From contig JAJFVF010000004.1 in assembly GCA_021371935.1 (NCBI GenBank), positions 62,001 to 126,000 on the forward strand: a stretch of 64,000 nt of DNA, read 5' to 3'. Shown here in pieces: positions 10,184-56,525 of this stretch. The stretch's first letter is position 1, and every line of letters begins with the position of its first letter. The notes below the pieces were generated by a model, which was given only the letters and a program-made list of their open reading frames with translations, was not told the origin of the DNA and did no database searches. This DNA is from a bacterium (lineage in GTDB: Bacteria; Armatimonadota; UBA5829). Both the position numbers and the translations under genes were made by a program.

Positions 10184-10188
10184 TGTCG

Positions 10189-37808: not shown

Positions 37809-38051
37809 TTATTCGGAGATCATCAGTTCCGCCTCGGCTGCGGCAATCAAGGTCGAAAGAGGCATCTTAAGACCTCCCGCTATAACGAGCAGGTTCTTGA
37901 GAGTGACATTGCGCTCACCGCGCTCAACCGACCCGACATAGGTTCTATGCACGCCAATGGCATCGGCAAAAGATTCCTGGCTGTATCCAAGTTTACTTCG
38001 GCGCGCTTGGATAATCTTGCCCAAGCGCTGCTGCATCAGTTTTGTGTCCAT
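37809..38051 (-). CDS. XRE-family HTH regulator
   Basis: This 80-residue protein is a single Cro/CI-type helix-turn-helix domain: KIIQARRSKLGYSQESFADA, IGVHRTYVGSVERGERNVTL and LLVIAGGLKMPLSTL. Its gene lies 71 nt after the cyclotransferase gene on the same strand but has its own promoter inside a 9-bp inverted repeat. It has no visible ribosome site, and the RNA may start close to the ATG. It probably represses itself and may also control the amidoligase operon upstream. The small size without an oligomerisation domain is common in restriction-modification controllers and phage regulators. Confidence 0.85.
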   Translation of the reverse strand: MDTKLMQQRLGKIIQARRSKLGYSQESFADAIGVHRTYVGSVERGERNVTLKNLLVIAGGLKMPLSTLIAAAEAELMISE

Positions 38052-38056
38052 AATGC

Positions 38057-38093
38057 AGAGTGTAGCCGCATGAGATTTATACGTCTACACTCT
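38057..38093 (-). promoter_or_regulatory. Inverted-repeat operator and -10 box of the XRE gene
   Basis: AGAGTGTAG (38057-38065) and CTACACTCT (38085-38093) form a perfect 9-bp inverted repeat with a 19-nt spacer. On the minus strand TATAAA (38081-38076) lies in the spacer and is a likely -10. A dimeric repressor on both arms would cover the promoter. Confidence 0.65.
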
Positions 38094-38122
38094 ATGAGTA
38101 GCATTGTGGCTGCATCATATCC

Positions 38123-38641
38123 TTATGACCAGCTTATCTTGTTTGTTGGCCGCGCCTTTCGGATCAGACTTCCACCATCAATGTAGCACCAAGCAGACTG
38201 CACAACACTGCCGGAAGTCATTACCGGAACCAGCACACGACGATATATGCAGGATTGCCCAAGACGGAAACCCTCAAGCTGATCAATCTTGGGTAGCGAT
38301 TGGCATGGGTCGGGAAAGGTTACCAGTTCGCCGTATATCATCTGCCAGGATGCTTTTTCACAGATAGCATCTGAAGTCCTATCCGAGAAGCGTTCCTGTG
38401 TTGCGACATCCGCCAAAGGATCCGATGTTCCGACAGCAATAATGCAGCTATCAGGCACCTGCAGAACCGGGATTCGTGATGGCAGTTCATAAAGCCGCCC
38501 TTGCACGACGGCCTCTTCTATACTGAGCGCAGTCTGGCAAAACCTGTCGTGGTTCCAATACCCCCGTTTGAGTGTACCGTATACAAATATCGAAAGTGTG
38601 CCTGTGCCAACCGAAATCTGATCATTATTAGTTTGTTTCAT
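38123..38641 (-). CDS. Gamma-glutamylcyclotransferase-like protein (GGCT/AIG2 family)
   Basis: This 172-residue protein has the family signature FVYGTLKRGYWNHDRF (residues about 19-34) for the oxyanion/glycine loop, and a catalytic Glu candidate in DQLEGFRLG. GGCT enzymes split gamma-glutamyl amides to 5-oxoproline and a free amine. In amidoligase operons they are thought to remove or recycle the gamma-glutamyl groups. ATG 38641 has GGAGGT 5 nt upstream. It follows the glutamine amidotransferase gene by 52 nt. The substrate is not known. Confidence 0.8.
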   Translation of the reverse strand: MKQTNNDQISVGTGTLSIFVYGTLKRGYWNHDRFCQTALSIEEAVVQGRLYELPSRIPVLQVPDSCIIAVGTSDPLADVATQERFSDRTSDAICEKASWQMIYGELVTFPDPCQSLPKIDQLEGFRLGQSCIYRRVLVPVMTSGSVVQSAWCYIDGGSLIRKARPTNKISWS

Positions 38642-38693
38642 ACTTACCTCCATATCTTATTGATCAGAGCGGATCTTCGTCCAACCGAGCTTG

Positions 38694-39485
38694 TTAGCCA
38701 GCGAAGCGTTGGAAACCCGAACGCCCTCTGCCAGCCAGTCTGAATGGCTGAGATGCAAATTTTGGAAGACTATCGCAATCGAGAGTCATTAGACTCATTG
38801 CTTGTGTTGGTATCTCCTGCCAGCCGGTATCAGATTGAAGAACGACATCGAGATGTGCAGGGTCAGATGCATAAATCATTACGTTGTGCTCCGGGTGGTA
38901 TCGAAATTCCAAAGGCTTGTTGCCTTTGATGACAATCACATTCTTCGGATCGAGCTTCGACGCCATTACCGCACTTATCAGCCCTCGACAAAGTGCAAGA
39001 CGCTTCTTGAACTCAATAAGGTCTATTCGTCCTTCGTTCAATGTGGCATCAGCCATTCTGAAGATGACCTCGCTGTCCACTTCAGCGAAACGAGGTAGAT
39101 CGAAGCGCATAAACAGATCGTCCGCATTGAGGATAGTGCCGTTGTGTGTTCCTAGAATCGCTCCGGCTCGAATTGGATGCGCGTTTGCGAGCACATTTAC
39201 ATCGCCACGGGTTGGCCAGCGAGTATGTCCGGCGAGCCACGTCGTTGCATTGTCGACCTCGGATATCACTTCGATAAACTCCTTTTCTTTGATAAACCTG
39301 GTCGCCGACAGTGGACGCTTGAAAATAGAGTGGCTACCGTTGTCTTTGAGCCAACTGATGCCGGTCGCGTAAGGACCACACTTCTCATTCAGGAGCAGTA
39401 AAAACATGAACAGCCACTTCAGATAGCTGCGTTCCTCCGGCTGCCTCTCCTTCGTGCCAAAAATCACTCCAAGTTGGCCACACAT
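38694..39485 (-). CDS. Class II glutamine amidotransferase domain protein
   Basis: This 263-residue Ntn-hydrolase starts with MCGQLGVIFG, so Cys2 becomes the N-terminal nucleophile after Met removal. GHTRWPTRGDVNVLANAHPI and GAILGTHNGTILNADDL are the standard glutaminase landmarks (as in PurF, GlmS and AsnB). There is no synthetase domain, so ammonia from glutamine would go to a partner, most likely the amidoligase in the same operon, or the enzyme may hydrolyse glutamyl amides itself. Its ATG shares one base with the TGA of the DUF5049 gene (TGATG), so the two are translationally coupled. Confidence 0.85.
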   Translation of the reverse strand: MCGQLGVIFGTKERQPEERSYLKWLFMFLLLLNEKCGPYATGISWLKDNGSHSIFKRPLSATRFIKEKEFIEVISEVDNATTWLAGHTRWPTRGDVNVLANAHPIRAGAILGTHNGTILNADDLFMRFDLPRFAEVDSEVIFRMADATLNEGRIDLIEFKKRLALCRGLISAVMASKLDPKNVIVIKGNKPLEFRYHPEHNVMIYASDPAHLDVVLQSDTGWQEIPTQAMSLMTLDCDSLPKFASQPFRLAGRGRSGFQRFAG

Positions 39486-39703
39486 CAGATATCACCTCCC
39501 TCAACTTCAAAGCCCGTGAATATACCGAGCCTGTATAAGTCCGGATTATCCTCCATCCAGACAATGGTCTCGAAATACTCCATATCAAAGGCCAATTTCT
39601 GCACCATCGGAGCATCGAACATGTTGGTCTTGCCTGATGCTCGGACTGCCTCGATGCCTCGCCATACCGACTCAGGAATCTTGACAGAACTAGTGTGTTC
39701 CAT
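39485..39703 (-). CDS. DUF5049 family small protein
   Basis: This 72-residue protein contains SSVKIPESVWRGIEAVRASG, TNMFDAPMVQKLAFDM and NPDLYRLGIFTGF, the pattern of DUF5049, a small family seen in phages and mobile DNA and often encoded beside amidoligases. The start at 39703 has GGAGG 7 nt upstream and lies one base after the amidoligase stop; the longer open frame is the shadow of that gene. It may be a peptide substrate or a partner of the amidoligase, although no conserved C-terminal acceptor motif is evident. Function unknown. Confidence 0.75.
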   Translation of the reverse strand: MEHTSSVKIPESVWRGIEAVRASGKTNMFDAPMVQKLAFDMEYFETIVWMEDNPDLYRLGIFTGFEVEGGDI

Positions 39704-39704
39704 G

Positions 39705-40634
39705 TCAAACCTCCGCAGGCTCCCGGCTTTCGCCGGGTTGATTCTTGGGTTTCGGTCTGCCTCTTTTGAACGCGGCGTCGCCGGGCATCGCATGCAAGAG
39801 GTGCATTCTAGCGGTCTTGAATTCGTCTCCGTTCAAACCCAGGTGAATGAGGAAAATCCTGAAGTCGTATTTAGCTGAGTTCGGGTCGAACTCTCGTTTT
39901 CGGCTGGAGGCTGCGCGGCTGTTAAGCGCCTTGGCTGCTATGGCAAGCACGAATTGGACGGCGGCTTTCACCTTGCCGGCATGCAGTGTCGCCTCAAACA
40001 TTCTGAACTCAACGGTCCCTCTATACCAGACGTTGTGCAAGTTCAGGCAGTTGTAACGAGTATTGTCATAATGAGTAGGACAGGTGTTCAGGTGGCCATA
40101 CCACAGGCGATTGACCTGCTCAAGCGTCCTAGGGCGGCTGTGTTCAAGCTTTGCTATGAACTCGGCGCTGATAGGTTTCGTATACTGATGCAGTCGCCGC
40201 TCGCTTACGCCAAGAGCTGTCAGAATGAGTGGCTCCTGTTTAAACATTATCTTCGCGAGGTTTGCCAGCGTCTTGCCAGTAAATGCACTCGAATCAGCAT
40301 GGATATGCATTCCGCAGTTCTGGTCAACTCGCAGGCCGCATTTGCGCAGCGCACGAACCACTTCCTGCAGCACTGGCAGGTCTTCGTAACTTAGTACCGG
40401 GCTTACTACTTCTGCACGCAGGTTGGAAGCTACACTCGTAAGCGAGGCATCGGCAACGACTTTCCATATTCTGCTGTGTGCATCTTTAACTTCCCATGGG
40501 TCGTAGCTGCTCGGACTTGCCACATGGCTGACTTCTCCGCCTACCACCGACTGGATGGCTTTAGCAGCCGTTTCGCGCGTTTTGCCTATTGTTTCAATCT
40601 CAACACCGAACTTCAGGTCTCTTAGATCAGTCAC
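39705..40634 (-). CDS. Putative amidoligase (glutamine-synthetase-like COOH-NH2 ligase)
   Basis: This 309-residue protein belongs to the putative amidoligase family (PF12224 type). [19 protein letters not shown] (9-27) carries the metal-binding Glu pair, [17 protein letters not shown] the His segment, and [18 protein letters not shown] the late Glu/Arg motif. The family is related to glutamine synthetase and is predicted to form amide bonds between a carboxylate and an amine using ATP, possibly on peptides or proteins. The GTG start has GAGGA about 7 nt upstream. With DUF5049, a class II amidotransferase and GGCT it makes a four-gene operon predicted for such ligases by comparative genomics. 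The C-terminus is basic and Pro-rich. Confidence 0.85.
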
Positions 40635-40892: not shown

Positions 40893-41243
40893 TTGAGAAA
40901 ACTACATCTGTTTGCCATTGCCACAGTACTTCCAGTAATGCTACTTACAGGTTGCGGGAGCAGTGGTACCAAAATAACCCAGGCCGAATATGGAGATAAA
41001 TGGCCGTTTACTGTAAACGAAGGAACCCTCTCTTGCAGAGAGACCGGCAGGGTTGTCGGCACCACTAAAATGGTTGAAGTAACGTTCACTGCCAATGGCA
41101 TCACCTACGCCCTGAATGGCACGGCTAAGCAAAACAACAGCTATGCCAATGTAGATTCCATATGGGCTAAAGATACTTCTTTGCCTGGGACAAAGAAAGA
41201 TATTGGTCCGATAATTGACCGTGGTCTGGCACTTGCTAATTAA
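40893..41243 (+). CDS. DUF2511 family lipoprotein
   Basis: This 116-residue protein has a lipoprotein signal peptide ending LLTGC (Cys21), then TQAEYGDKWPFTVNEGTLSC and VTFTANGITYALNGTA. These match DUF2511 (YebY-like), small periplasmic proteins that are often found in prophages and plasmids. A Cys in GTLSC may be structural. The TTG start is supported by AAAGGA about 9 nt upstream and by the basic N-terminus MRK. Its stop overlaps that of the convergent tail gene. It is the only plus-strand gene between the amidoligase operon and the tail module. Confidence 0.75.
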   Translation: MRKLHLFAIATVLPVMLLTGCGSSGTKITQAEYGDKWPFTVNEGTLSCRETGRVVGTTKMVEVTFTANGITYALNGTAKQNNSYANVDSIWAKDTSLPGTKKDIGPIIDRGLALAN

Positions 41244-41531: not shown

Positions 41532-44500
41532 CTAACTCAGCGTTGCACCCAGGGAATGAATGCGAGGATAGACGAGGTTATTGCCTGTAATAACAGCCTT
41601 GTAGCGAACCCGATTGCCGGCAGGATTTGTGAATGTCCGCAAGTAGATGTATTCCGTCCAGGTCTGGTCGACCTCACGGGTTGAATCAAGCGTCATCGGT
41701 TCCCACGTCGCGCCGCCGTCATTGGAAGCAAACCAGTTGAGAGAGCACCCGCTGGGAATGTTCATCTGAGCATATACCTTGCTCGATTCCACTCCCTGGG
41801 TCAGTTCGTTCTCCCGGCTGATATAGACGCCATTGGGATTATTCAAGTAGCCAATCAGGTTCACATCCTTGTAATTGAGCGCGGGAGTATCATTTGCAGT
41901 GCTGCTCGAGAGCTTCGCTCGGATAATAATCTGCGCGGCGATATTTGGCAGGCTTTCCTCCTCTTCCGGCACAATCGCGTCCCAGGTGACCCCGCTGTCT
42001 GTTGAATAATCCCATGTCATGCCAGTTCCCTGTGGTATCGCCGAATACTCGTCAATGTTAAGCTCGGAGAACTGCACGCCGGTTATTGCCTTAAAACGCA
42101 CCTCGCCAGCGGGGACGAAGTCGTAGCCGTAAATCTTCATTGCCAGATCAGAGCCGTTCAGAGGAGTCCATGTCTCGGCGTTGGAGCTTTCGAGCAGCAC
42201 GCCTGTAGTATAGGTCTGCTTTGTGATGACACCGTTCTGGCCCAGTTGTCCCAGAGTCGCCACGCGCACCCTATAGTTCGTGCTATCGGTAAGGATCACA
42301 ACCGCGTAACTGGTGTTTGCCTCGGCATTGAACGGGTCATTGAATACGACCTTTGTCTCCGCATTGAGATTAATCTCGCCCGGAGAGACCACCTGCTGGG
42401 CGTATATGACATCATTTGGCAGGCCGGTAGTGACGCCTCGAATTTGGACCGTCACCGGGATAGACAGGTCTTTCTTCGTGAAGAACAGTCCAATCGCGGA
42501 AATAATCCTGCTTTCCGTAAAGCTGAACGTCTGTGCGAGCGGGTCCCACCTGTTCCAACCCCACCACCATCGCCATACAGTCCGGTATACGGGAACGCGG
42601 ATGATCTGTTGTTGTATGATGGTTTGCTTCTGAATTATTGTGTTCGTGACCTCGACCCGCTCGACTCGAGTCACGACCAGCGGATCATTTATCTGCAGAT
42701 TGGTCTGGGCAGAGTAAGTGCCATCAGTGACCTCAACAATCCGGTTTCCATTGCTTGCACTCTCAGGTATCACGAACGATGAGACCACACGTCCTGCCGA
42801 ATCAGCATGAACATCACTTGCGACAACCTGACCATCGCAGCGGATTGTGATGTGCTGAGCCTCGGTCAGGAAGTTCGAGCCAGTCACTGCAATGCCGGTT
42901 TGTCCCCGACGTCCTATATTGGGTGTTACTTCGACACTCGCCGGCGGTTTCTCGAACACGGCGTAAGGGTTGATGTTCTTCTCTTCCGACCAATCGAGTT
43001 GCTGAACAAGTACCTTCTCATTTCCGGGCAAGAGAACAAGACTGCCTTTGAAAAGGGCGCTGCTCTTTGCAATATCTACCTCCAGAACACGAGACGACGA
43101 CGCTCGCGCCGGTGCAACAAATTTGTGGATGCTGTCAATGCGCGCACTCCACTCAGTATGAAATGTATCAGATTGAGCCTCATTGGAGAAGTCGTCGGAG
43201 TAAATGCCTTTCTTGGTCTGAGCGTCCCGGTTCTGTAAATCGTTGTTCATTTGGTACTGCGCATCGTTATATTTCAGGTCTTCAACATCCTTAATAATAC
43301 GGTGGATCTGGTCCATTGTGATTCGGGTGAGGCCAAAGTTATGCACAATCATCGAGACGGAGTTTGCCGGGCAGTCGACGCTTGCGAGGGCAAGGGTGCC
43401 TTCAGGCACAACCGGAAGTTTCGGAAAGTCGGATGGCGCGCCCTCCAGCCGCTTTATTTCTCTGGCTGTCGCATAGATGATGTCTTTGCGGCCGAGATAA
43501 TAGTCATAATCAATGCTGCAATTCGAGCCGTTTACAGGGTCGCTGCCGACACCGCTTTTGCCGAAGTTGATGATGCTGGCATTTCCGGCACCTATAGTCG
43601 GCACAGGCTGCGATAGCCCGCTCGAGTTTGATGCAGGCGGGTTTGCGGTTGTCGTATCATCCGCACCATCGTCAATATATGATACAACCGCCGAACCGAC
43701 TTCCTTGAGCCTCCTGAAGCTGGCACGCTCTGAGTTCGGAGAGGCGCGGTAGACACGATAACTGGTCGCGCCGCTGACGGGCCTCCATGTAATGAGGTTT
43801 GTCTCGCCCGCGGCGGTTTGACACGATACCACTCGACCGCTGATATATTCCGTCTCACCGGACGCCGAGAGTGCTGTGACCACATAGAAGTATTCACCGG
43901 CAGCAGGATAACCTGGTTGGCCGAACCACCCGCCATCGACATAATCCGTACCTTTCACCATCTGCTTCACATATGTCCAGCGGACAGTGTATGTGGTTCC
44001 TATGGCGGGTTCACTGCCGGTACCTGTCCAGTCGACATAATTGCCCGATTGCATCCAGTCAGTGCCTTCGATAAAAACAGTTGCACCCTGGCTGACCTCA
44101 ATGATATCGACGACTGGATTCGGTGCAAGCAGGTCTTCTCCGCCGCCGACCGATCCGCGGGTAATGTTGGAGACGATCTCAACAATAGCTTCCACCTGCG
44201 TCGTTGCCTTGAGCGGAGTGCAGTTCAGAGCGTAACTGCGCTGACCGGTGACATAAGTCTTCTGCTCGCCGCGCACACTCTTCGTCGCGACTGCTCTGGG
44301 AACCAGAGTGGTTGTCGGTAAGTCCTTCTGAAGACGATAGCCCTGGATGTATGCCCGGCCTGCGTTGGTAATGACACGCACATTTGCACCGTCAGTCGCG
44401 CCGAGAAAGCTGTCGAAACCCTTGACGAGGTAGCTGCCCGCTTGGTCGTAGGTCCTTTCGGCAAGGTTATTGAGGAGTGAGTTGAGACCCTCGGCAGCAG

Positions 44501-45116
44501 CGAAGGATAATTGGTCTTCCGTGATGGATGCGACAGTAATCCGGCTACCGGGAAGAGTGCCAAGGAAGTCACTAAGATAGATACTGGACTTCTCCTGAAC
44601 CGTTGCCGCCACATCGCCAGTTTCGCGGTCGAATTTGTATATCGCGACGACCTTGCGCTCGGTTACATTATTGGGTAGGCTATCGCCGCTCGTATCGTGA
44701 TCCTTGAGCGACAGGACCCACTTCTCACGCTCTGCTGTCGGCTCTCCGGTAGCAGGGTTGATAAGTCCGGCATCCTGGTTGTAGCCGTAGTTATACTTGA
44801 GGAGTTCGACATACACGTAGTCGAAACCGGATGTCTTTGCCGGGTCATAAGTGAGTGTCGCGCCAGAAATGACCTCGATATGACCATCGATGTAGGTGAC
44901 ACCTGCAGAGATATTGAGGACATTGGCTGCAACCGATATGAGGAGACCGGATATGATTGCACCCTCCTTGAAGAGCAAATCGGCTATCTTCTTTTGCTCA
45001 TGGATTGCGATATCCTGCTGCTCATTAAGTTCCGAGTCCAGCAGATCCCGATCCTGATGATATCTCACCCGTTTGTAGTTTCTGGACGGGTCGAACGTGT
45101 CTCTGGAAATCGTCAT
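41532..45116 (-). CDS. DUF4815 tail-fibre-like protein (1,194 residues)
   Basis: The N-terminus (TFDPSRNYKRVRYHQDRDLLDSEL to ISAGVTYIDGHIEV) is the DUF4815 domain found at the start of fibre-like proteins in contractile-tail phages. Further along are a fibronectin-like pair (GQPGYPAAGEYFYVVTALSA, GATSYRVYRASPNSERASF), an IPT/TIG-like Ig domain (ASVEVTPNIGRRGQTGIAVT) and repeated beta modules near the C-terminus with SGVTWDAIVP and GGATWEPM. This is the longest gene of the module and probably the host-contacting appendage. GGAGA lies upstream of the ATG. Confidence 0.78.
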   Translation of the reverse strand: MTISRDTFDPSRNYKRVRYHQDRDLLDSELNEQQDIAIHEQKKIADLLFKEGAIISGLLISVAANVLNISAGVTYIDGHIEVISGATLTYDPAKTSGFDYVYVELLKYNYGYNQDAGLINPATGEPTAEREKWVLSLKDHDTSGDSLPNNVTERKVVAIYKFDRETGDVAATVQEKSSIYLSDFLGTLPGSRITVASITEDQLSFAAAEGLNSLLNNLAERTYDQAGSYLVKGFDSFLGATDGANVRVITNAGRAYIQGYRLQKDLPTTTLVPRAVATKSVRGEQKTYVTGQRSYALNCTPLKATTQVEAIVEIVSNITRGSVGGGEDLLAPNPVVDIIEVSQGATVFIEGTDWMQSGNYVDWTGTGSEPAIGTTYTVRWTYVKQMVKGTDYVDGGWFGQPGYPAAGEYFYVVTALSASGETEYISGRVVSCQTAAGETNLITWRPVSGATSYRVYRASPNSERASFRRLKEVGSAVVSYIDDGADDTTTANPPASNSSGLSQPVPTIGAGNASIINFGKSGVGSDPVNGSNCSIDYDYYLGRKDIIYATAREIKRLEGAPSDFPKLPVVPEGTLALASVDCPANSVSMIVHNFGLTRITMDQIHRIIKDVEDLKYNDAQYQMNNDLQNRDAQTKKGIYSDDFSNEAQSDTFHTEWSARIDSIHKFVAPARASSSRVLEVDIAKSSALFKGSLVLLPGNEKVLVQQLDWSEEKNINPYAVFEKPPASVEVTPNIGRRGQTGIAVTGSNFLTEAQHITIRCDGQVVASDVHADSAGRVVSSFVIPESASNGNRIVEVTDGTYSAQTNLQINDPLVVTRVERVEVTNTIIQKQTIIQQQIIRVPVYRTVWRWWWGWNRWDPLAQTFSFTESRIISAIGLFFTKKDLSIPVTVQIRGVTTGLPNDVIYAQQVVSPGEINLNAETKVVFNDPFNAEANTSYAVVILTDSTNYRVRVATLGQLGQNGVITKQTYTTGVLLESSNAETWTPLNGSDLAMKIYGYDFVPAGEVRFKAITGVQFSELNIDEYSAIPQGTGMTWDYSTDSGVTWDAIVPEEEESLPNIAAQIIIRAKLSSSTANDTPALNYKDVNLIGYLNNPNGVYISRENELTQGVESSKVYAQMNIPSGCSLNWFASNDGGATWEPMTLDSTREVDQTWTEYIYLRTFTNPAGNRVRYKAVITGNNLVYPRIHSLGATLS

Positions 45117-45125: not shown

Positions 45126-45659
45126 CTATATCTTGATGACCCCTACAAGCTCGACACGTGTGTCGGAGGTCTTGTTGAAGTCGGGGATGTTCTTAACTTC
45201 ATAGAGATAGCCCGGTGCAAGCACCTGTCCGCCTGGGTTGGTGATGGCTTGGAACACGCCGCCCACCGCATAGTCGGACTGAATGCCACTGACATATGTG
45301 ACATTTCCACCAAAGAAGCCATACTCGCGGATTGTGATGCCGTTTGCCTCGCATTCTTCGAACCTGAAGAAGACACCAATGATATTTGTCTCCTGGCTGG
45401 TCTCGGAGTAGTGGATGCCATTTACAACAAGCACACCCTCCGGGTCTTCAGCAAGAAACCTGCGTTTATATTGCTTCTTCCGGGCACACTCATGCTTAAG
45501 TGTATTCTGCTCTATTGTAGGCGCAGGCGGGTTAAGCGGATCGACAAACGTTACATCTCCGTCGCCTATAGCACAGTGCGTGATACCATCGATAGAATCA
45601 CCCATCAAGAGCTTTGCAGTAAGCACGCGGCCGCTGGCTGTTATAAGTCCAAGGGACAT
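45126..45659 (-). CDS. Tail-collar/fibre-like protein
   Basis: This 177-residue beta-rich protein begins SLGLITASGRVLTAKLLMGD and has IGDGDVTFVDP and a C-terminal VELVGVIKI strand. The N-terminal pattern is like phage tail-collar fibre N-domains (DUF3751 type), which attach to the baseplate. It lies between two other tail genes, with GGAG before the ATG and only 9 nt to the DUF4815 gene. The assignment is by resemblance and context. Confidence 0.6.
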   Translation of the reverse strand: MSLGLITASGRVLTAKLLMGDSIDGITHCAIGDGDVTFVDPLNPPAPTIEQNTLKHECARKKQYKRRFLAEDPEGVLVVNGIHYSETSQETNIIGVFFRFEECEANGITIREYGFFGGNVTYVSGIQSDYAVGGVFQAITNPGGQVLAPGYLYEVKNIPDFNKTSDTRVELVGVIKI

Positions 45660-45670
45660 TATCTTCTCCT

Positions 45671-46132
45671 CTAAACCTGTATCTCATGGCTCTCTCGGAA
45701 GAGATACACATAGATGCTTTGCTTAATGTCTGAATTTGACATCAGCCGGTGTATGACAATCAGTTCGCAGTCAGGATGTCTTTCAAGCGGACCGAAGACG
45801 GCTTCACGGGCATCCGGTCGCAAATTCAGCACGTGGTATATCGTCATATGCAAATTGTTGCCGACAGACACCGGCCGAACAACCAGCATTCTGACATCTA
45901 GTGCTGTGCTCACCGGACCGACTACAACTGCACGCAGATCCGGTTCTACGCTAACACTCCGGATTGTGACAGTGGATACATCGATCACTCGTGCAATAGT
46001 TCGAACGCTGCTCGTAGCCTTCGGCAACTCAAGCACGATAGCTTTACCTATCGGACCCAAGACACGGTTCGTCGGAATAACAGTGCCTCTTGCAAGGCCG
46101 ATAGTATTCTTGCGACTTTTACGGACAGCCAC
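45671..46132 (-). CDS. Tail module protein of unknown function (153 residues)
   Basis: The chain is basic and rich in Val and Ile. Repeated beta-like segments such as IDVSTVTIRSVSVEPDLRAV, SVSVGNNLHM-like and LRPDAREAVFGP suggest a small beta protein. It opens with MAVRKSRKN on a GTG codon and overlaps the 43-residue gene before it by 14 nt; both begin MAVR plus basic residues. No family is recognised. Context makes it part of the tail operon. Confidence 0.5.
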   Translation of the reverse strand: MAVRKSRKNTIGLARGTVIPTNRVLGPIGKAIVLELPKATSSVRTIARVIDVSTVTIRSVSVEPDLRAVVVGPVSTALDVRMLVVRPVSVGNNLHMTIYHVLNLRPDAREAVFGPLERHPDCELIVIHRLMSNSDIKQSIYVYLFRESHEIQV

Positions 46133-46250
46133 GCTTCAGTCTCCCTCTGATGACATATGGTCTGCCGGTAGTCTTGAACGGCTTGAACCGAGGTCTGACA
46201 ATTGCTATCAAGTTTCGTATGTTGGGCTTCTTTGCCTGCCTTACTGCCAT
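46119..46250 (-). CDS. Very small basic protein (43 residues)
   Basis: ATG at 46250 follows a strong AAGGAGTAAGTT site directly after the previous gene's stop. The product begins MAVRQAKKPNIRNLIAIVRP and ends LKRGCP. With about a quarter Arg or Lys it may bind nucleic acid or a larger tail protein. The next gene begins inside its 3' end. Its N-terminus resembles that of the following protein, which hints at a duplication. No known family. Confidence 0.55.
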   Translation of the reverse strand: MAVRQAKKPNIRNLIAIVRPRFKPFKTTGRPYVIRGRLKRGCP

Positions 46251-46253
46251 AAC

Positions 46254-47243
46254 TTACTCCTTAATCGCACACCAGCCGCCACCGGAAAGATAGAACATCT
46301 TGTACGTGCCGGTACCCAGGTCGAGAAGATCTTCTGAATCACCGGCACCTGAACCGACGCAGTAGACCTCGATAAGCTCTCCCCGTAACTCCTCCGTACC
46401 CGTTGCAGTCATCGCAACCAACCAGGGAAACATGATTGTCAAGCCATAACGCACATCGGGGTCGGAATAGCTTGCAAACCCGCCGCTTGCAGCTCCACAG
46501 CTTCCGGTCTGACCTGTTGTGTTTGCATAGCCATTCCACTTGTTCAGGGCATAAAATGTACCTGGCATATTGTTCCGACCTATGATGACCGGCTGTGGAT
46601 CTTCACCAACTTTCGCTCCACTTGCATAAGCTGCCGCGAGTGTTGCAACTGTGATCGTGTTTGGTGTAGTTGTAGTGTCTCGTGCTGTAACCTGCACACG
46701 CTCTATGTTTGCGTCATCCTTTATGATGTAGTAGTTGCCGGCAGTGAGTAATGAGGCATCGTTTACCTGTATCACAACGCTGCTTCCGGCAGTAACCGCC
46801 GCCTGGGTTATCGCCATGGCTCCTGACCAATAACGCTTGATGATCCCGCTGTAATTGAGATAATAAGTAGCTGTTATCTTGGTCACCACACACATATGAT
46901 CGAGATCGCCATACAACCAATAGAGAAACTGAGCTGAATCCTTGGTCGATATCATGGTTGCTCCAGAGGAATAGGCGCCCTTGACACCAGCATGCGTAGT
47001 AGCATTCCAATAGAGATAGCCTCTCACTGTAATGCAGTCTGTGCTTGCGGTATCGTTTATAAGCTGGATGTAAATATCTTCCATACCCGACTCGCCAATA
47101 GACTTCAGGACATAATAAGGTTCAGTCAGAGCAGAGCCATCGTCATGTAGCGTCCAGCCGCAGGTCGTTACAAGAAAATCCTTGACCTTGGCGAGCAGGT
47201 CAGCGGTGTTGTTGGCCGTGCCAGATGTGCTGTGATATGCCAT
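46254..47243 (-). CDS. Tail module structural protein of unknown function (329 residues)
   Basis: The N-terminus (GTANNTADLLAKVKDFLVTT CGW, then YYVLKSIGESG) resembles the start of several uncharacterised phage tail proteins. The middle (AVTAGSSVVIQVNDASLLTA and NIERVQVTARDTTTTPNTIT) is beta-rich and Thr-rich like fibre domains. The C-terminus has a Gly-rich segment (GCAAS-like) ending LSGGGWCAIKE. AGGAGG lies upstream of the ATG. It lies 9 nt after the 197-residue tail gene. Probably a fibre or baseplate decoration protein, by context. Confidence 0.6.
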   Translation of the reverse strand: MAYHSTSGTANNTADLLAKVKDFLVTTCGWTLHDDGSALTEPYYVLKSIGESGMEDIYIQLINDTASTDCITVRGYLYWNATTHAGVKGAYSSGATMISTKDSAQFLYWLYGDLDHMCVVTKITATYYLNYSGIIKRYWSGAMAITQAAVTAGSSVVIQVNDASLLTAGNYYIIKDDANIERVQVTARDTTTTPNTITVATLAAAYASGAKVGEDPQPVIIGRNNMPGTFYALNKWNGYANTTGQTGSCGAASGGFASYSDPDVRYGLTIMFPWLVAMTATGTEELRGELIEVYCVGSGAGDSEDLLDLGTGTYKMFYLSGGGWCAIKE

Positions 47244-47252
47244 TTCTTCCTC

Positions 47253-47846
47253 CTACAGGATGGGATACTCAGTGCCGAGAATCTTCAGCTTGATGTCGAT
47301 CTTGTTCTGAACAGGTGTTCCGGCTGGCACGGCTATCCGCCGCCAGAACGAGAGCTTTGCCGCATGCGCCTTGTCGCCGAGAATTAGCTGTGCACCCGGC
47401 GTTGCCGAATCCAGATCGGTCTGGGTAGCAGCGAGCCTGCACCATGAAGACTCGTCACTGTCCGTGGTATCGAGAACCTGAACGACGAGGCCCGTATAGT
47501 CATAACCTGAGTAAACCTTTGTGCCGGAGCTGTGGCTGGTCGGAGTCGTGCCGCCATAGCCGCGCTCAACGGTAAGATTCGTCGTGCCACCGCCGCTCAG
47601 GATCCTCATCTGCTCACTGCCGATGATGATTGCTTCGTCGTTTATAAACCTGGGATAGGAAAGCTGAACATCAATTTGAGAGGAGTTCATTGCAGTAGCA
47701 AGTGCTGTCTGTTCGTTGGCGATGAACAACTCTCGGTCTTTGGACTCTCCATCAGAGCCGTTGTAGATATCCGAGTCGGGATTAGCCATTGTGCCCTCGG
47801 ATATCTGGTCTGTCAGGTCTGTATTTCTATATAAATGTATAGACAT
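47253..47846 (-). CDS. Tail module structural protein of unknown function (197 residues)
   Basis: This protein is beta-rich, with GSEQMRILSGGGTTNLTVER, a YGGTTPTSHSSGTKVY turn and a C-terminal segment (QNKIDIKLKILGTEYPIL). The middle resembles short tail-attached beta domains. GGAG precedes the ATG by 8 nt, and the gene follows the gpI gene by 9 nt. No exact family match is known to me. Context places it among fibre proteins. Confidence 0.55.
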   Translation of the reverse strand: MSIHLYRNTDLTDQISEGTMANPDSDIYNGSDGESKDRELFIANEQTALATAMNSSQIDVQLSYPRFINDEAIIIGSEQMRILSGGGTTNLTVERGYGGTTPTSHSSGTKVYSGYDYTGLVVQVLDTTDSDESSWCRLAATQTDLDSATPGAQLILGDKAHAAKLSFWRRIAVPAGTPVQNKIDIKLKILGTEYPIL

Positions 47847-47855
47847 GATGTGCTC

Positions 47856-48905
47856 CTAGTCTGTCGGCCACTGCAGAACCGTATAAAGATTCGCTGCGCG
47901 TGTGAAGCCAGTATGCACAAACGCATAGAAGTCCTTTTGTTTGAAGATCACGTGACAGGCCAACTGTGCATGATTGAATCCTGCTCTGTTGAGATGCTGC
48001 CCGCAAGTCTTCAGAACAGTGTGTGCAGGCCCGCGATATGAGCCGGTATCTACCTCACAGGTGAATCCGGCTTTGCCCTCGCTTATCCACAGGTTTGCGA
48101 GGTTCTCTGAGTTGAGTGTTCCGGCATTGAGCTTGAATCCGGATGTTCGCCTCAGCCATCGCAGCACACGAGTACCGGCGCGCTCAATGTCCGTAAGCAG
48201 CGTGAAGTGGCAGGAGATCTCACAGACTCCCCAAGTCTTTTCTTTGTATGTGAGCTTATAACCCGAATTAAGCCTGTTGTGTCTTACAACAAATGTCTCA
48301 TGGAGATGCCCCATCATCACCATTTCCACGAATTTTGCAAGTGTAGTGGTGAAGTTGTCTGTTGATTCAAAGGTTTGCAGCCACTGCAGGAAGTAGGTCT
48401 TCATTCCTGCCGGATGGTGTGACTTGAGTGCTTCACGCAGCCTGGAAACCAGGTTATCGCATTCGACGCGATAGACTCCGAGGCTATAGATGCGACCCGG
48501 GAGTTTCGCACCGCTCACATGAGACCTCTTATTGAGCCGAAGAGCTGAGCGAAATGTCTCGTCTATCTTGCCTGCCCAGCCGACATTCACAAGCGAACGG
48601 TGAATGGCTGGAATGCTTCCCTTGCGACGGTAGAACTCGATTGCCTCGAGTATTTCCCGCCGCTGCATGTTCGGGTCACGGGTAGGATCGAAGTTGCAGC
48701 CGACAATGTTTGCGAGCAGCGGAATGAATCTGACATCACAATTGTCAATATCGAAAATGCTGGGCAGCCGATCAATAAGTTCCTTGAGTTCGTCCAGCGT
48801 TACGGCAGGCACACTCAGGAATGCTTGAAGATCGCCGTTTGCATCCTGCTCACGGTAGACCGGCGGCAGGAGATCGATGAGTTTTTCCTCGAAGTATCCA
48901 GCCAT
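47856..48905 (-). CDS. Phage tail protein I (gpI-like baseplate component)
   Basis: This 349-residue protein has the gpI family pattern: LLPPVYREQDANGDLQAFL, IDNCDVRFIPLLANIVG and EILEAIEFYRRKGSIPAIHR in the first 110 residues. Tail protein I joins baseplate wedges to tail fibres. The second half is longer than in P2 gpI and contains two similar beta segments (FVVRHNRLNSGYKLTYKEKT and LACHVIFKQKDFYAFVHTGF) that may be fibre-docking domains. GGAGGACG precedes the ATG, which overlaps the TGA of the gpJ gene. Confidence 0.8.
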   Translation of the reverse strand: MAGYFEEKLIDLLPPVYREQDANGDLQAFLSVPAVTLDELKELIDRLPSIFDIDNCDVRFIPLLANIVGCNFDPTRDPNMQRREILEAIEFYRRKGSIPAIHRSLVNVGWAGKIDETFRSALRLNKRSHVSGAKLPGRIYSLGVYRVECDNLVSRLREALKSHHPAGMKTYFLQWLQTFESTDNFTTTLAKFVEMVMMGHLHETFVVRHNRLNSGYKLTYKEKTWGVCEISCHFTLLTDIERAGTRVLRWLRRTSGFKLNAGTLNSENLANLWISEGKAGFTCEVDTGSYRGPAHTVLKTCGQHLNRAGFNHAQLACHVIFKQKDFYAFVHTGFTRAANLYTVLQWPTD

Positions 48906-50314
48906 CAGGTCGTCCTCCGAATATCTAGGTGGACTTCACCCAGCGCCGCGATCTGACCCGGCTTAATTTCAACATCCACTTGCGGAGAGAACATCGTCAC
49001 GTGACTCACGCCCTGGATACCATCGATAAGCGAGACGATATCGGAGAAATATACGGACTGGCCAAAGGTCAACTTGTCGAACGAGAAGAATTCCTGCAGA
49101 GCAGCTTCAATGCGTCTTCGCACTGTCTCAATGTCCTCAGTCTGATAAACATAGACTTCTGCGTCAATGGAAATCGAGCGGTAGCAGGGGTCAAAGAGGT
49201 TCACCTCAATGGTAATTACCTTACGAGACTCGATGAAGTCGGCAAGCTGCTGCTTAAGTAATGCTGATGGAAGCCCGCCGCCGTTCGGAGCGACAGCCAT
49301 GTTAACCTGATAATATCGAATATTGACGCAGTCGTTTGAATCAAGCACCTGCGCTTTGGCCACACCGGGGAAGCCTTCTGCCAGAGCCTTGTAATCATCT
49401 TTCGTGATGGCTTTCCAAAGTGATCTGAGTTCCGCCGGAGCCTGCAGCTTTGCGTGTTCAAGTGTCTCCCTATCCGAGCCGTTTGTCGAAGGAATGACGT
49501 TATTAACACGAAGCTGCACTACTTCTCCGTCGTGATAGATTGGAGTCACCAGCTCGGTCACCAGTCCGCGCCCAATGTTGCCCTTCGCGCCAAGGGTTTC
49601 AAGATAATCGACGGTGATCGTCTCACCTGCGGTCGGAACCGCGCCGTGGATTCCGTCGCTGAAGATGATCCACATGACATCCAGCCCGTTGGTCTCAACC
49701 TGGAAATGCTTCGAGTCTGGCGCGCTGTCGATGAAGAACCGTGTCTCTTCCCAGTCGGAGTCGCCGACGCGAACACGGACACTTCCCTGGGCGATGCTGG
49801 TGGAGGAAAGCGCAAACTTCTGAGCGCGATCACCGGTACCAACGAATTCTTCACTCTTCCGGGTTCCCTGCCGCGTGCCGACATCAACCGACAATTTCCC
49901 TCTGGCGAGCACTTTATCTTCAATGGTCTCAAAGTCGACATTGCCATCATCAAGCCTTGCACTACAGATAGTCTTTGCGGGGATAGTGAGGTCGCCATCA
50001 AGTGCCGTTAAAAGACTAAAGCGAATGGTTGTTGTAGCTGCAACTGGAGTATCAAGCCTGTAGTTTATTAGCTTGCAGAGGTTGATGACGTTCTGACGCT
50101 GACGTGCGGTGGGAAGAAACGCCTCCGCAGCCTGGGCATCGAGATAATATGCGAGCATGTCGCCGACACCACAGAAAAGCTCAAGAAGCACTACTCCCAA
50201 GTCGGACTCATTGAAGTCGGTCCAACGGTCGGTAAGCTGCGGCACCCGCGCAAGAAGTTCCTGCCTAAGCGACTCGTAATCCTTATTCGTATATGAAATG
50301 CTCGCTCTACCCAA
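48905..50314 (-). CDS. Baseplate J-like protein (gpJ)
   Basis: This 469-residue baseplate wedge protein begins ISYTNKDYESLRQELLARVP and WTDFNESDLGVVLLELFCGV, the N-terminal pattern of the baseplate J family. ALAEGFPGVAKAQVLDSND and the late SLIDGIQGVSHVTMF are characteristic of its middle and C-terminal parts. With gp25 and gpI it forms the wedge that triggers sheath contraction. A TTG start is used, with GGAG 8-9 nt upstream, overlapping the end of the gp25 gene by 8 nt. Confidence 0.85.
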   Translation of the reverse strand: MGRASISYTNKDYESLRQELLARVPQLTDRWTDFNESDLGVVLLELFCGVGDMLAYYLDAQAAEAFLPTARQRQNVINLCKLINYRLDTPVAATTTIRFSLLTALDGDLTIPAKTICSARLDDGNVDFETIEDKVLARGKLSVDVGTRQGTRKSEEFVGTGDRAQKFALSSTSIAQGSVRVRVGDSDWEETRFFIDSAPDSKHFQVETNGLDVMWIIFSDGIHGAVPTAGETITVDYLETLGAKGNIGRGLVTELVTPIYHDGEVVQLRVNNVIPSTNGSDRETLEHAKLQAPAELRSLWKAITKDDYKALAEGFPGVAKAQVLDSNDCVNIRYYQVNMAVAPNGGGLPSALLKQQLADFIESRKVITIEVNLFDPCYRSISIDAEVYVYQTEDIETVRRRIEAALQEFFSFDKLTFGQSVYFSDIVSLIDGIQGVSHVTMFSPQVDVEIKPGQIAALGEVHLDIRRTT

Positions 50315-50762
50315 TTTCCACTCTCCTTGTGCCGATATCCGATGACTCGGTCAGCTCTTCACGACAAAACGGCCACACCAAATTGTCCTCTACCTGTGTA
50401 TCAATCACTCGATAGGATATGCGAACTGAAAGCATATTTGCGTCTATAACTTCAGCCGACTCGTTAAATGAGACATCAGTGACGACCACACGCTTTTCCC
50501 AACGCTCGACATCATCAGTGATGTAGTGGCGCAACAGCCCCTTGAGCACATCATTATTCGGCTCAAAGACAAGATCGCGGACATGTGAGCCGAACTCTGG
50601 ATTCATAAACCGCTCACCCGGCCGCGTCCCAAGTATCTGCAGAATGCTCTCATGTATATGCGCATGATCTATCGATGTGATTGTTGAGACCTGAGCACCG
50701 CCTGAGCGTCTGGCAAATGCAAACGGAAATCGAAGTCCTTTGCCAAGGAAATCAGTGCTCAT
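50307..50762 (-). CDS. GPW/gp25-like baseplate wedge protein
   Basis: This protein of about 151 residues has ESILQILGTRPGERFMNPEFG followed by VRDLVFEPNNDVLKGLLRHY, the conserved centre of the gp25/GPW family that initiates sheath assembly on the baseplate. The ATG at 50762 overlaps the stop of the preceding gene (TGATG); a GTG one codon earlier is less likely. The length is normal for the family. Confidence 0.88.
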   Translation of the reverse strand: MSTDFLGKGLRFPFAFARRSGGAQVSTITSIDHAHIHESILQILGTRPGERFMNPEFGSHVRDLVFEPNNDVLKGLLRHYITDDVERWEKRVVVTDVSFNESAEVIDANMLSVRISYRVIDTQVEDNLVWPFCREELTESSDIGTRRVEIG

Positions 50763-51682
50763 CACTCAGGCTCCTGGCAGTTAAAGCACACTGCGCCGGT
50801 GTCATCATCACCATCATCACTGCCACTTTCGGGGAAGTGGAACACAAGATCCAAGCCGTCTGAGAGGGAAAGGTGAATTGTGCCATCGGACTCGATCATC
50901 CCTGCATGTCCGGTTTCCAGTGCCTTGAAGTTTTTTGCGCCACCGGATATATTGCGGGACTGCACCTCTTCACCGATTCCGTAGATGTGCGCGATACCGA
51001 GGACATCAATCGTGCTGTTCGGGTTAGCAACCGCAATAGTCTTCTCATTTTGATAGACATCAATTCGTGTTCCATCCGGCAGCACGACCGTGTATCTGCT
51101 TGGCGAGGCAAGAACTGGTTCAACACCATCCGGCAGACCGTCGATTCCCGCAGCTTCATGAGTCACCTTGATCGCATTGCTCACAAGCGTGAGTTCACGA
51201 CCATCAGGCAGTGTGACCTTACCTCCGGATGCAGGCGTAATAGCCGCTGGAGTTCCGTTTTCACCAATGGCGATCATCGAACCGTCAGGGAACACTCGCA
51301 GAAATGCACCGTCAGTAAAGCCGAAGAGTCTTCCGCCGTCCGGCAGATCGCGGATGGTGGTTCCTGTAGGCATTGATGTAAATGGATGGTAGTCAACCGG
51401 CACTGGTTCTTCGACTTGCCGAATATACTCCTGCGCGCTCTGAGCGTGCATATTGAGCACGCTTTGCACTTCCTGCCGAAGCTGTTCAGTCGCAGCCCAA
51501 CTCTGCTCCATCAATATCCGTATCTCGTGCAGATCTTCGGTCATCTGCTCAAGATACGGCTTTTCTCTGTTGAGACCGAACCATTCCCAGGAAGCCTGCG
51601 CAATCGCCATCAGCTCATAATGGTTCTCCGAAGAGCTGGTCTGCTCTATAAGCGGCTGCGGTGTTGTCTCATTGTCTGCCAT
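50762..51682 (-). CDS. Tail protein with repeated PDG beta motifs (unknown)
   Basis: This protein of about 306 residues has a helical N-terminal half (MEQSWAATEQLRQEVQSVLN) and a C-terminal repeat region in which strands are punctuated by PDG or DGG turns: LPDGGRLFGFTDG, VFPDGSMIAIGENG, LPDGRELTLVS, LPDGTRIDVYQNE and LSDGLDLVFHFP. Such repeats form beta-solenoids or prisms in spike and fibre proteins. The last residues are acidic and end with a CFNC pair. ATG 51682 has GGGGGA 6 nt upstream. It lies between the Ig-like genes and gp25. No named family recognised. Confidence 0.6.
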   Translation of the reverse strand: MADNETTPQPLIEQTSSSENHYELMAIAQASWEWFGLNREKPYLEQMTEDLHEIRILMEQSWAATEQLRQEVQSVLNMHAQSAQEYIRQVEEPVPVDYHPFTSMPTGTTIRDLPDGGRLFGFTDGAFLRVFPDGSMIAIGENGTPAAITPASGGKVTLPDGRELTLVSNAIKVTHEAAGIDGLPDGVEPVLASPSRYTVVLPDGTRIDVYQNEKTIAVANPNSTIDVLGIAHIYGIGEEVQSRNISGGAKNFKALETGHAGMIESDGTIHLSLSDGLDLVFHFPESGSDDGDDDTGAVCFNCQEPE

Positions 51683-51683
51683 A

Positions 51684-52436
51684 TCAAATCCCCCAGGGTG
51701 GAGCAAGCCTTATATTGCCGACGTACCAGCCGTCGAACATCTGATAGAGTGCATCCTGCGTATCCCACACAAAGCGCACTGTAACCGACCGACCGATAAA
51801 CTCCCACAGATCCACCCACTCGGTGCGCCTCGGAATAACATACGGCTGGTTCCATGCCGGATAGATTGCAGGCGTTGTCGGATTGAAATTGCGTTTCCAC
51901 GTGTTATTGAAGTACAGGTCCAGCGTATCGTGATTGCGGACGCCCATGCTCTCTATCTCGCCCCATACATCAAAATAGAGCCGGTAGTGCTTATCAAGGT
52001 CAAGTATTATTGCAAGCTCACCTTGTACGCGGACGTTTCCTCCCCACTGATCGAACCAGTCGGTGAAATACCTGAAGTGCCAAACACCATCCGGCAATTC
52101 CTCGACGTAGCCGCTTGGCACTATCTCACGTATTGCGGGCGGAGCCACCGGCTGCTGCACTTCTGTTCCTATGTCAATCTGCACGTAGCGACGGGACACC
52201 ACTATGCTGTCTCGTACTGCTTCCACGACAATCACCGCCGCGCCCGCGTTTGCTCCACATGTGAGCTGTTCGTCCGACACAAAAGCTATGCTCGGGTCCG
52301 TTGACATAAAGATCACATCGCCGCTGGGCACACCGAGTATGTCAACGGGAAATGACTTCGACACTTGGTCATACGGCAGCACTATCTGTCTGGGCCGAAC
52401 ATCCCAGTATGGAATGACAAGTCCGCTCTCAGGCAT
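51684..52436 (-). CDS. Ig-like tail protein, larger paralogue
   Basis: This protein of about 250 residues starts with an Ig-like (BIG2-type) domain: YWDVRPRQIVLPYDQVSKSF, GVPSGDVIFMSTDPSIAFVS and RRYVQIDIGTE. A C-terminal beta domain of about 130 residues follows (DGVWHFRYFTDWFDQWGGNV, LDLYFNNTWKRNF, VRFVWDTQDALYQMFDGWYV) that looks like a jelly-roll or carbohydrate-binding module. The first domain repeats that of the next protein upstream. ATG 52436 has GGTGG just before it and overlaps the preceding stop. It could decorate the tail tip or bind a host glycan. Confidence 0.6.
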   Translation of the reverse strand: MPESGLVIPYWDVRPRQIVLPYDQVSKSFPVDILGVPSGDVIFMSTDPSIAFVSDEQLTCGANAGAAVIVVEAVRDSIVVSRRYVQIDIGTEVQQPVAPPAIREIVPSGYVEELPDGVWHFRYFTDWFDQWGGNVRVQGELAIILDLDKHYRLYFDVWGEIESMGVRNHDTLDLYFNNTWKRNFNPTTPAIYPAWNQPYVIPRRTEWVDLWEFIGRSVTVRFVWDTQDALYQMFDGWYVGNIRLAPPWGI

Positions 52437-52719
52437 CTGCCACCGCCGCTGCAACGCTTACAACCTCGACCTGCACATAGCGCACGCTAGTGCGGTCCTC
52501 GTTGTCGTAAGCGTAAATGACCGTCGCTCCGATGTTGTAGCCGAGTGATACAATACCATCTTCGCTCACAGTAGCTATGGCCCAGTTTGAAGAATCGAAG
52601 CATACCCTGCCTCTGGGATTGCCACGCACAGACAGCGGCACCGTCATGTTAAGCGATCCATGTGAGACTTTTATCGACTTGGGAAAGACATCCCAATATT
52701 GGACCTGCAGATCATTCAT
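52429..52719 (-). CDS. Ig-like tail protein, smaller paralogue
   Basis: This 96-residue single Ig-like domain reads LQVQYWDVFPKSIKVSHGSL, RGNPRGRVCFDSSNWAIATV, EDGIVSLGYNIGATVIYAYD and RYVQVEVV. It aligns along its length with the first domain of the protein encoded just downstream (YWDV, then SxxWAIA/TDPSIAFVS, then RYVQ), so the two are tandem duplicates. The ATG at 52719 follows the PAAR stop closely; the longer open frame covers PAAR coding DNA and is not used. Confidence 0.6.
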   Translation of the reverse strand: MNDLQVQYWDVFPKSIKVSHGSLNMTVPLSVRGNPRGRVCFDSSNWAIATVSEDGIVSLGYNIGATVIYAYDNEDRTSVRYVQVEVVSVAAAVADA

Positions 52720-52726
52720 AGCTTTC

Positions 52727-52993
52727 TTAATCCACCATAGTGTCCAAGCTGCCGCCAACAATGACAGCGCCGCAGCCGGTGACATCTCCCATCCTTGCAT
52801 TCGGCCTGCCGTCAGTGCATGTCTTGAGACTACCGGTAACAATAGGCGTTACACCGTGATGAGGGATGGGACACACATGCATATCACCCATTCGGGCTGC
52901 GGGTCTGCCGTTGACCATTGTTGTAAGCGAGCCGGTAATGATTGTCCCTCCATGGCTAGACACATCTCCAAGTCTTGCCTGTGGTCTTGCCAT
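52727..52993 (-). CDS. PAAR-domain tail spike tip
   Basis: This 88-residue protein is made of PAAR-type repeats: RPQARLGDVSSHGG, NGRPAARMGDMHVCP and DGRPNARMGDVTGCG, with His and Cys positioned to hold a metal ion at the point. PAAR proteins sharpen the spike of contractile tails and type VI secretion systems. The gp5 spike gene is two genes upstream, so the two would join as the puncturing tip. No toxin domain is attached. Confidence 0.85.
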   Translation of the reverse strand: MARPQARLGDVSSHGGTIITGSLTTMVNGRPAARMGDMHVCPIPHHGVTPIVTGSLKTCTDGRPNARMGDVTGCGAVIVGGSLDTMVD

Positions 52994-52997
52994 ATAT

Positions 52998-53375
52998 TTA
53001 GTACCTCGTAAAATAGTTTATGACTGCGCTAATAATGCCGCTGATGATTCCACCGACAGCGACCACAAGTCCGGCGACTTTCCACATAGTTTCGACGCCG
53101 ACCTTGCTCTCAACATTCGTATGCAGGCTCTTTATCTCCTCGGCATGCCGTGCAAGTTCATCATTGATTCCACGAACGATAAGATCGACGTTTTCCTTGT
53201 CGCTCTTCTTCTCTATCTCCCGCTCGATCTTTTCAAGCCGCCCCTGAATGTCCCGTCGATGCTCTTCAAGGATCATGCGAAACTCGGCACGCCAGGTATC
53301 AAAGGTCTTTGCAAGGAGCCTTTCACTTTCGACCCAACCGCACTTTCCCGGTCCCTGGCATTCGTTTTCAGCCAT
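52998..53375 (-). CDS. XhlA-like coiled-coil protein with C-terminal membrane helix
   Basis: This 125-residue protein has a long coiled coil (RMILEEHRRDIQGRLEKIER to LHTNVESKV, about 35-92) followed by one hydrophobic segment (WKVAGLVVAVGGIISGIISA). This is the layout of XhlA/hemolysin-type phage proteins that accompany holins. Two Cys near the N-terminus (NECQGPGKCGW) are unexplained. It lies between the gp5 spike and PAAR genes, an unusual place for a lysis gene, so a membrane-anchoring or tail-tip role is also possible. Confidence 0.55.
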   Translation of the reverse strand: MAENECQGPGKCGWVESERLLAKTFDTWRAEFRMILEEHRRDIQGRLEKIEREIEKKSDKENVDLIVRGINDELARHAEEIKSLHTNVESKVGVETMWKVAGLVVAVGGIISGIISAVINYFTRY

Positions 53376-53390
53376 TTCGGGCTACTCCTG

Positions 53391-54476: not shown

Positions 54477-54494
54477 GGTCTGCTTTTCCTCGCC

Positions 54495-54806
54495 TTAAAG
54501 CACCCGAAAGACTTCTTTGAGAAACCGGACTACGGCGCTCTTTGGAGTCTTCTTCGGGTCGGCTTTCGCAACAGAGTTCTGAACTGCATCCCTGGCAGCA
54601 GACGACAGGTTCGTTTCTTCCTTAGCAACTCTGCTCTTGATTTCACCTGCGCCGATCCGTTCAATGATGCCGGTAATGACATCCAGCGCAGAGGCTTGAG
54701 CCTTGCCCCAGGCCGTGAGCTTGATAATCGCTATGAGAGACACAAGAAACGTTACAAACAGTTCTTTGTTCTCAATGATGGTTTTGATAATCTGATCCCA
54801 ATGCAC
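54495..54806 (-). CDS. Small membrane protein in the tail module
   Basis: This 103-residue protein has one membrane helix (KELFVTFLVSLIAIIKLTAW, about 14-33) and a basic helical C-terminal domain (TNLSSAARDAVQNSVAKADP, KTPKSAVVRFLKEVF). It could be a holin-like or a tail-anchoring protein. No holin family is recognised. A GTG start is used, with GGAGG 9 nt upstream. It lies between the gpD-like and gp5-like genes. Confidence 0.5.
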   Translation of the reverse strand: MHWDQIIKTIIENKELFVTFLVSLIAIIKLTAWGKAQASALDVITGIIERIGAGEIKSRVAKEETNLSSAARDAVQNSVAKADPKKTPKSAVVRFLKEVFRVL

Positions 54807-54824
54807 TGATATTGCCTCCTCACT

Positions 54825-56150: not shown

Positions 56151-56364
56151 CTGCTAGCTCCGGCTTGGTCATACAAGCACCTCTACTTAGTTATTTACTA
56201 CTAGAAACCACGAAGTGTCGGAATAAGTTGCCGTCTCATTCCTAGTAACCCTGCCAGTTTTACCGGCATGGCGTCAAACAGGCACGTTATTTGCACATCG
56301 TATTACTGAGGTATTGTATGAAAGGGCAATACAGACCAATTGCATAATTGAAAGGAGATGTCCA

Positions 56365-56430: not shown

Positions 56431-56443
56431 ATGCAGAATCAGT

Positions 56444-56471: not shown

Positions 56472-56525
56472 TAGGTATCTGAACTAGCTAGTACAACAAT
56501 TGGGTATCTAATCCAGGCAACCTGC

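Follow-up and report, generated by a model that had tools for sequence, protein, structure and literature searches.

Several podoviruses, phiEco32, LUZ24 and tf among them, carry together an amidoligase, a class II (Ntn) glutamine amidotransferase (GATase) and a gamma-glutamyl cyclotransferase (GGCT), and with them an enzyme of the ATP-grasp type and one more ligase (PMC5498523; PMC11253131; PMC3890496). This set has been proposed to alter peptidoglycan and so to block superinfection, with peptidoglycan as its predicted target (PMC5498523; PMC11253131); the 'peptidoglycan modification cassette' of LUZ24, phiEco32, UFV-P2 and PSA-HP1 is traced to Iyer 2009 (as cited in PMC11253131; also PMC5498523). 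Pairs of an amidoligase and an AIG2/GGCT protein also occur in Firmicutes, in Tn6164 (PMC3485107), Terrisporobacter phage TPDSL_ph1 (PMC11253131) and Ca. Heliusvirales. We found no experimental test of the podoviral-type prediction in the literature surveyed. In LUZ24 the gene order is ligase, GATase, a 73-amino-acid protein, ATP-grasp enzyme and GGCT. The underlying enzymology is established, in that gamma-glutamyl amides are made by ligases such as glutamate-cysteine ligase and YbdK and cleaved by GGCTs; in the case of butirosin, the ligase BtrJ adds a gamma-glutamyl group that the GGCT-fold enzyme BtrG removes.

The locus described here lies in a 64,000-nucleotide stretch of DNA (the window) from a bacterium of the Armatimonadota. 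On its minus strand, from 40634 down to 38123, stand genes for an amidoligase of the Amidoligase_2 family (39705-40634; 309 amino acids, GTG start; PF12224, 1e-62, 212.6 bits against a cut-off of 22), a small DUF5049 protein (39485-39703; 72 amino acids; PF16468, 8e-14, 51.8 bits against a cut-off of 28.7), a free-standing class II GATase domain (38694-39485; 263 amino acids; PF13522, 1e-13) and a GGCT of the GGACT/AIG2 type with the motif YGTLKRGxxNH (38123-38641; 172 amino acids; PF06094, 1.5e-14). Stops and starts overlap or lie close together at the junctions, ribosome-binding sites precede the DUF5049, GATase and GGCT genes, and the four genes form a real operon. Profile matches thus recovered every gene that the original prediction had named, with two corrected starts: that of DUF5049 is most likely at 39703, with a GGAGG site in front, and that of GGCT is at 38641, preceded by GGAGGT. 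(A promoter scan of the sequence returned sites no more numerous than in shuffled sequence.)

The operon resembles the podoviral cassette of LUZ24 and UFV-P2 in the order of its Amidoligase_2, GATase_6 and GGACT-type GGCT enzymes and in including a small protein (about 73 amino acids in the podoviral set). It differs in having neither the ATP-grasp enzyme nor the PF14395 ligase. A profile search for PF14395 (COOH-NH2_lig) found none in the operon or in the window's genome, whereas the LUZ24 positive control was detected; no RimK-like ATP-grasp gene is present in the operon, and a genome search with R2K_2 gave no match, though no positive control was detected in that search and LUZ24's own match is weak. 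Furthermore, the ligases are only distantly related, such that our ligase profile misses LUZ24 gp18, and the window cassette sits at the tail end of a temperate myovirus rather than in the early region of a podovirus. The small proteins differ as well: we considered LUZ24 gp20 (73 amino acids) as a homologue of DUF5049 and rejected it, as it belongs to DUF7195. Judged by its genes and their sequences, the window cassette is a reduced, remodelled relative of the podoviral cassette, which bears out the earlier statement that comparative genomics had predicted related systems (PMC5498523; PMC11253131). What is new is the reduced four-gene form, DUF5049 as a modular partner, a linked gain of the GATase and switch of GGCT subtype, and a site beside a slot that is occupied by BREX and restriction systems in related phages.

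The amidoligase retains the residues expected at its metal and ATP sites. In particular, G10xE12xE14, H110xH112 and E209xR211 are invariant in an alignment of 56 sequences, so that the metal-binding glutamates, whose loss would have spoken against the original prediction, are all in place. A sequence search against solved ligases gave no match, and an AF2 model (pLDDT 94.5) assigns the protein to the glutamine-synthetase/glutamate-cysteine-ligase type of fold. The nearest structure to the model is the plant glutamate-cysteine ligase 2gwc (Z 13.8, rmsd 4.0 over 251 residues), followed by YbdK (Z 13.7), which Foldseek ranked first; glutamine synthetase and Dop/PafA rank lower. The Pup ligase PafA and the depupylase Dop do share the fold superfamily (Z 10.6-11.4), but the amidoligase model is nearer in fold to glutamate-cysteine ligase, and the C-terminus of DUF5049 is not conserved as that of a Pup-like tag would be. 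The substrate of the amidoligase is not fixed by such similarity of a model to known folds.

The GATase has the glutaminase domain of GlmS (1xff) as its closest solved structure by sequence, and the glutamine pocket of GlmS (M1-C2, GHTR, N115-G116 and D137-S138-E139) is retained both in the window protein and in nearly all of the 19 relatives compared. The GATase has a complete glutamine site and no synthase domain of its own. In the GGCT, Y25-G26, Glu127 within LEGF (the expected catalytic glutamate) and Y137 are invariant in 21 sequences. (A cysteine, C39 in the window GGCT, is invariant in both ligase-linked GGCT subtypes and absent from LUZ24 gp22.) Taken together, the sequences and fold of the enzymes support the formation and removal of gamma-glutamyl-type amides, and such make-and-break chemistry is likely the best reading of the cassette.

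The cassette is the tail-end cargo of a prophage, lying behind its tail-fibre genes. A small conserved gene that closes the tail module (P93; 41240-41521, minus) and stands directly upstream of the cassette in Kiritimatiellota and in phages is preceded, further upstream, by genes for a DUF4815 tail-fibre/baseplate protein (41532-45116, minus; 1194 amino acids; PF16075, 3.5e-101) and a contractile-tail module with PHROG matches to baseplate, tape measure, tube and sheath (45126-63982, minus). Beyond the window are genes for a major head protein, a MuF-like minor head protein, portal, terminase, primase and recombination functions, whereas the opposite flank of the cassette consists of chromosomal genes syntenic with those of a relative of the same family, G011. 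Phage genes on one side and syntenic chromosomal genes on the other indicate that a myovirus prophage is integrated in a chromosome here. A DUF2511 lipoprotein-like gene (40893-41243, plus) with the lipobox LLTGC stands in the opposite orientation between the amidoligase and the last tail gene; it may be a separate cargo gene expressed in lysogeny. An open reading frame matching nucleoside 2-deoxyribosyltransferase (57271-57732; 2.5e-24) overlaps the end of the tape-measure gene. Outside the window, contig L023 encodes two large proteins. One, a prophage protein of 1282 amino acids in the head-gene region (4437-8285), combines a domain of the adenine DNA methyltransferase type with a long second portion; the other (10154-14857; 1567 amino acids) has an N-terminus resembling MuF-like minor head proteins and a very long stretch that matches a phage family of uncharacterised function.

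Linkage of the cassette to phages extends well beyond the window. The order ligase, DUF5049, GATase, GGCT recurs in Armatimonadota relatives, in Kiritimatiellota and in many phage contigs, so that the conservation of gene order on which the original prediction had been staked is found. Among 101 related genomes, 10 encode PF12224 and 8 encode DUF5049, all 8 within those 10 (hypergeometric P = 2e-10, a value that ignores shared ancestry), and at 9 of 10 sites in relatives the amidoligase is at most 0.5 kb from DUF5049. The same tail fibre is present in 23 phage contigs, one of which ends too early to judge; in 20 of the 22 informative contigs an amidoligase lies downstream of the fibre, and the remaining two have type I restriction genes where the cassette would be. 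Conversely, G011 has the four genes with no phage genes around them: they form a clean chromosomal insertion of 2,744 bp between two genes that are adjacent in the window, which indicates that they are a unit able to stand apart from a phage. (Ligase, GATase and DUF5049 of G011 are 75-89% identical to those of the window, a level similar to the 83-90% of the flanking host genes, but the GGCT is only 48% identical.) Together these findings uphold the view of a mobile, phage-linked cassette. Two relatives also contain three consecutive open reading frames of about 450, 320 and 335 amino acids (L042, 10045-13383; L048, 13228-16531), which separate the tail from the amidoligase in one relative and amidoligase pieces from DUF5049 in the other; their lengths are reminiscent of a recombinase trio.

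A GGCT follows the ligase in nearly all phage and conjugative-element loci, being absent or undetected in a few. Of the loci with a GATase, 22 have a GGCT of the YGT subtype and one of the YGS subtype, whereas the other loci comprise 52 YGS and one YGT. In the ligase tree, the rows that bear a GATase fall in about one clade (SH-aLRT 82), with one very divergent row apart. These sequence patterns suggest that the gain of the GATase and the switch of the GGCT from YGS to YGT were linked and occurred almost together on the ligase tree. The pairing of two GGCT subtypes with a single ligase family speaks clearly for the two enzymes working on the same bond, and the proposed logic of a ligase plus a remover is strengthened accordingly by the comparison. 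In the Firmicutes prophages and conjugative elements a related ligase, at about 35-40% identity, precedes a GGCT of the YGS subtype; DUF5049 is often close by, the GATase is lacking, and the genes are sited either ahead of the terminase or within the transfer genes. A second, divergent ligase is often present upstream; in Firmicutes phages such as those of contigs L104, L115, L177 and L197 it is short and frequently accompanied by DUF5049.

DUF5049 had been put forward as either a substrate or a specificity factor, and the two halves of that proposal fared differently. Its core, AxRxxGxTNMxD, is invariant in the alignment. A single-sequence AF2 model reached a pLDDT of only 46 and gave no confident structure, and a sequence search revealed no solved relative. 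We rejected the idea that DUF5049 is a RiPP substrate or a tag like Pup, since it has no invariant lysine or cysteine and its C-termini vary; a conserved CAGK/CADK tail of the Kiritimatiellota small protein was dismissed as a peptide core because it results from reading the overlapping GATase start, MCGQV, out of frame. Nor is DUF5049 an obligate partner of the amidoligase, as 20 phage records, halovirus HCTV-1 among them, have it with no detected amidoligase (a count for which the control genomes gave no signal, several of the records being fragments). Between ligase and GATase lies a modular slot, which holds DUF5049 alone in the window, an unnamed N-terminal domain plus DUF5049 in Kiritimatiellota and that domain alone elsewhere. 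In one contig (L192, 4938-6038), directly behind an amidoligase, a 366-amino-acid protein joins an N-terminal part with no assigned family to a GGCT (residues 163-262) and DUF5049 (residues 305-360). In five other contigs DUF5049 comes directly after the GGCT, and in still others it is fused behind DUF4314. An adaptor or targeting role fits this modularity, the GGCT and DUF4314 fusions and the occurrence with no detected amidoligase, and a substrate role does not; by these sequence comparisons an adaptor is the more likely. The GGCT-DUF5049 fusion is a physical clue to the function of DUF5049.

Adjacent to the operon is a gene for an XRE-type regulator (37809-38051, minus; PF01381, 1e-12), which is probably a neighbour outside the cassette. 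It had been taken for the controller of the operon, a role that we discarded: the gene starts 71 bp beyond GGCT with no visible ribosome-binding site, it lies behind the cassette only in a few close relatives, and its best match among the PADLOC models is a restriction-modification control protein (4e-18). Its closeness to restriction control proteins among these models suggests that it may be a leftover of restriction-type cargo. In related phages, the slot behind fibre and cassette is occupied by type I restriction-modification genes, BREX BrxC, a C5-methylase with an SNF2 helicase or a PLD-helicase (variable slot seen in L058, L222, L224, L227, L229, L230, L231, L010 and L038). None of the four cassette proteins matched a PADLOC model. 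The suggestion of a defensive or conflict-related cassette is therefore borne out as to its neighbourhood in related phages and not as to the cassette proteins themselves.

The explanation that we favour, tentatively and with rather less than even confidence, is that the operon is temperate-phage cargo whose enzymes form and cleave amide bonds of the gamma-glutamyl type in the lysogen, with DUF5049 as adaptor and phage exclusion as its likeliest role. Support for a gamma-glutamyl cassette comes from the conserved catalytic residues of all three enzymes, from the proximity of the ligase fold to glutamate-cysteine ligase and YbdK together with the near-constant GGCT, from the confinement of GATase gain and GGCT-subtype change to essentially one ligase clade, from the fusion or adjacency of GGCT and DUF5049, the near-fixed site behind the fibre and the clean four-gene insertion, and from the published podoviral prediction (PMC5498523; PMC11253131). 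As to activity, substrate, direction of the chemistry and role, we infer the following. The amidoligase would link an amine, at the expense of ATP, to the side carboxylate of either glutamate or a residue resembling it; the GATase domain would split glutamine, supplying glutamate or ammonia; the GGCT would take off gamma-glutamyl groups as 5-oxoproline, which would make the mark reversible or clear wrong products; and DUF5049 would be a small adaptor that tethers or targets the cassette enzymes. By analogy with the podoviral cassette, a cell-envelope peptide or other host amine might be changed such that competing phages are excluded. Against this, the operon is missing the two further podoviral enzymes, the ATP-grasp enzyme and the PF14395 ligase, so that a peptidoglycan pathway would be incomplete, and in the conjugative elements that also carry the family superinfection exclusion is only one possible benefit. 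The same chemistry could instead serve reversible gamma-glutamyl tagging that DUF5049 aims at a host protein or the envelope, in a prophage immunity or counter-immunity module that is the constant neighbour of the variable defence slot; this variant we consider fairly unlikely.

The GATase has a whole glutamine site with no synthase domain and, throughout one clade, adjoins the ligase, which shares the glutamine-synthetase fold. These features raise the possibility of a split glutamine-dependent amidotransferase: as in GatD/MurT, the GATase would feed ammonia to the ligase for the amidation of a carboxylate, for instance that of a cofactor or a cell-wall peptide, and the GGCT would act on a side product. 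This is unlikely, since most relatives of the ligase have a GGCT and no GATase, implying that the wider family needs no such ammonia source, and since the nearest folds are glutamate-cysteine ligases. The defence genes in the slot behind the cassette, the two phages with type I restriction-modification genes in its place and the cassette-type genes near DNA methylases in Firmicutes phages and elements would all suit an anti-defence or defence module, which would act by modifying some component of the phage or the host, whether protein, nucleotide or DNA-related. However, besides the lack of PADLOC matches, the cassette is nearly fixed whereas the defence genes vary, and methylases or ParB-like genes are present in the Firmicutes setting also in phages with no GGCT-linked ligase nearby; we regard such a module as fairly unlikely. 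Still less probable is a small-molecule pathway for lysogen metabolism, in which amines are used or metabolites protected by gamma-glutamylation in the style of PuuA/PuuD or BtrJ/BtrG. Ligase and cyclotransferase do follow the BtrJ/BtrG logic, and the window GGCT is of the YGTxxxGxxNH type, but no transporter, oxidase or biosynthetic family is prominent among the conserved neighbours. BtrJ itself is an ATP-grasp enzyme acting on a carrier-bound substrate, and the window cassette has no carrier protein. In this lineage 20 of 22 phages have the cassette behind the fibre and the last tail gene, which might suggest that the enzymes modify or cross-link the adjoining fibre during virion maturation. 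We consider this very improbable, given that ligase-GGCT pairs of Firmicutes phages are distant from tail genes and others lie inside conjugative-transfer genes, that the four genes stand alone in the G011 chromosome, and that two phages with the same fibre have no cassette.

Amidoligase-GGCT pairs are widespread, occurring across several phyla in phages as well as in conjugative elements. The compact four-gene form, glutaminase included, offers a tractable unit for the 2009 prediction, as given in papers that cite it, that phages rewrite an amide-bonded host structure.
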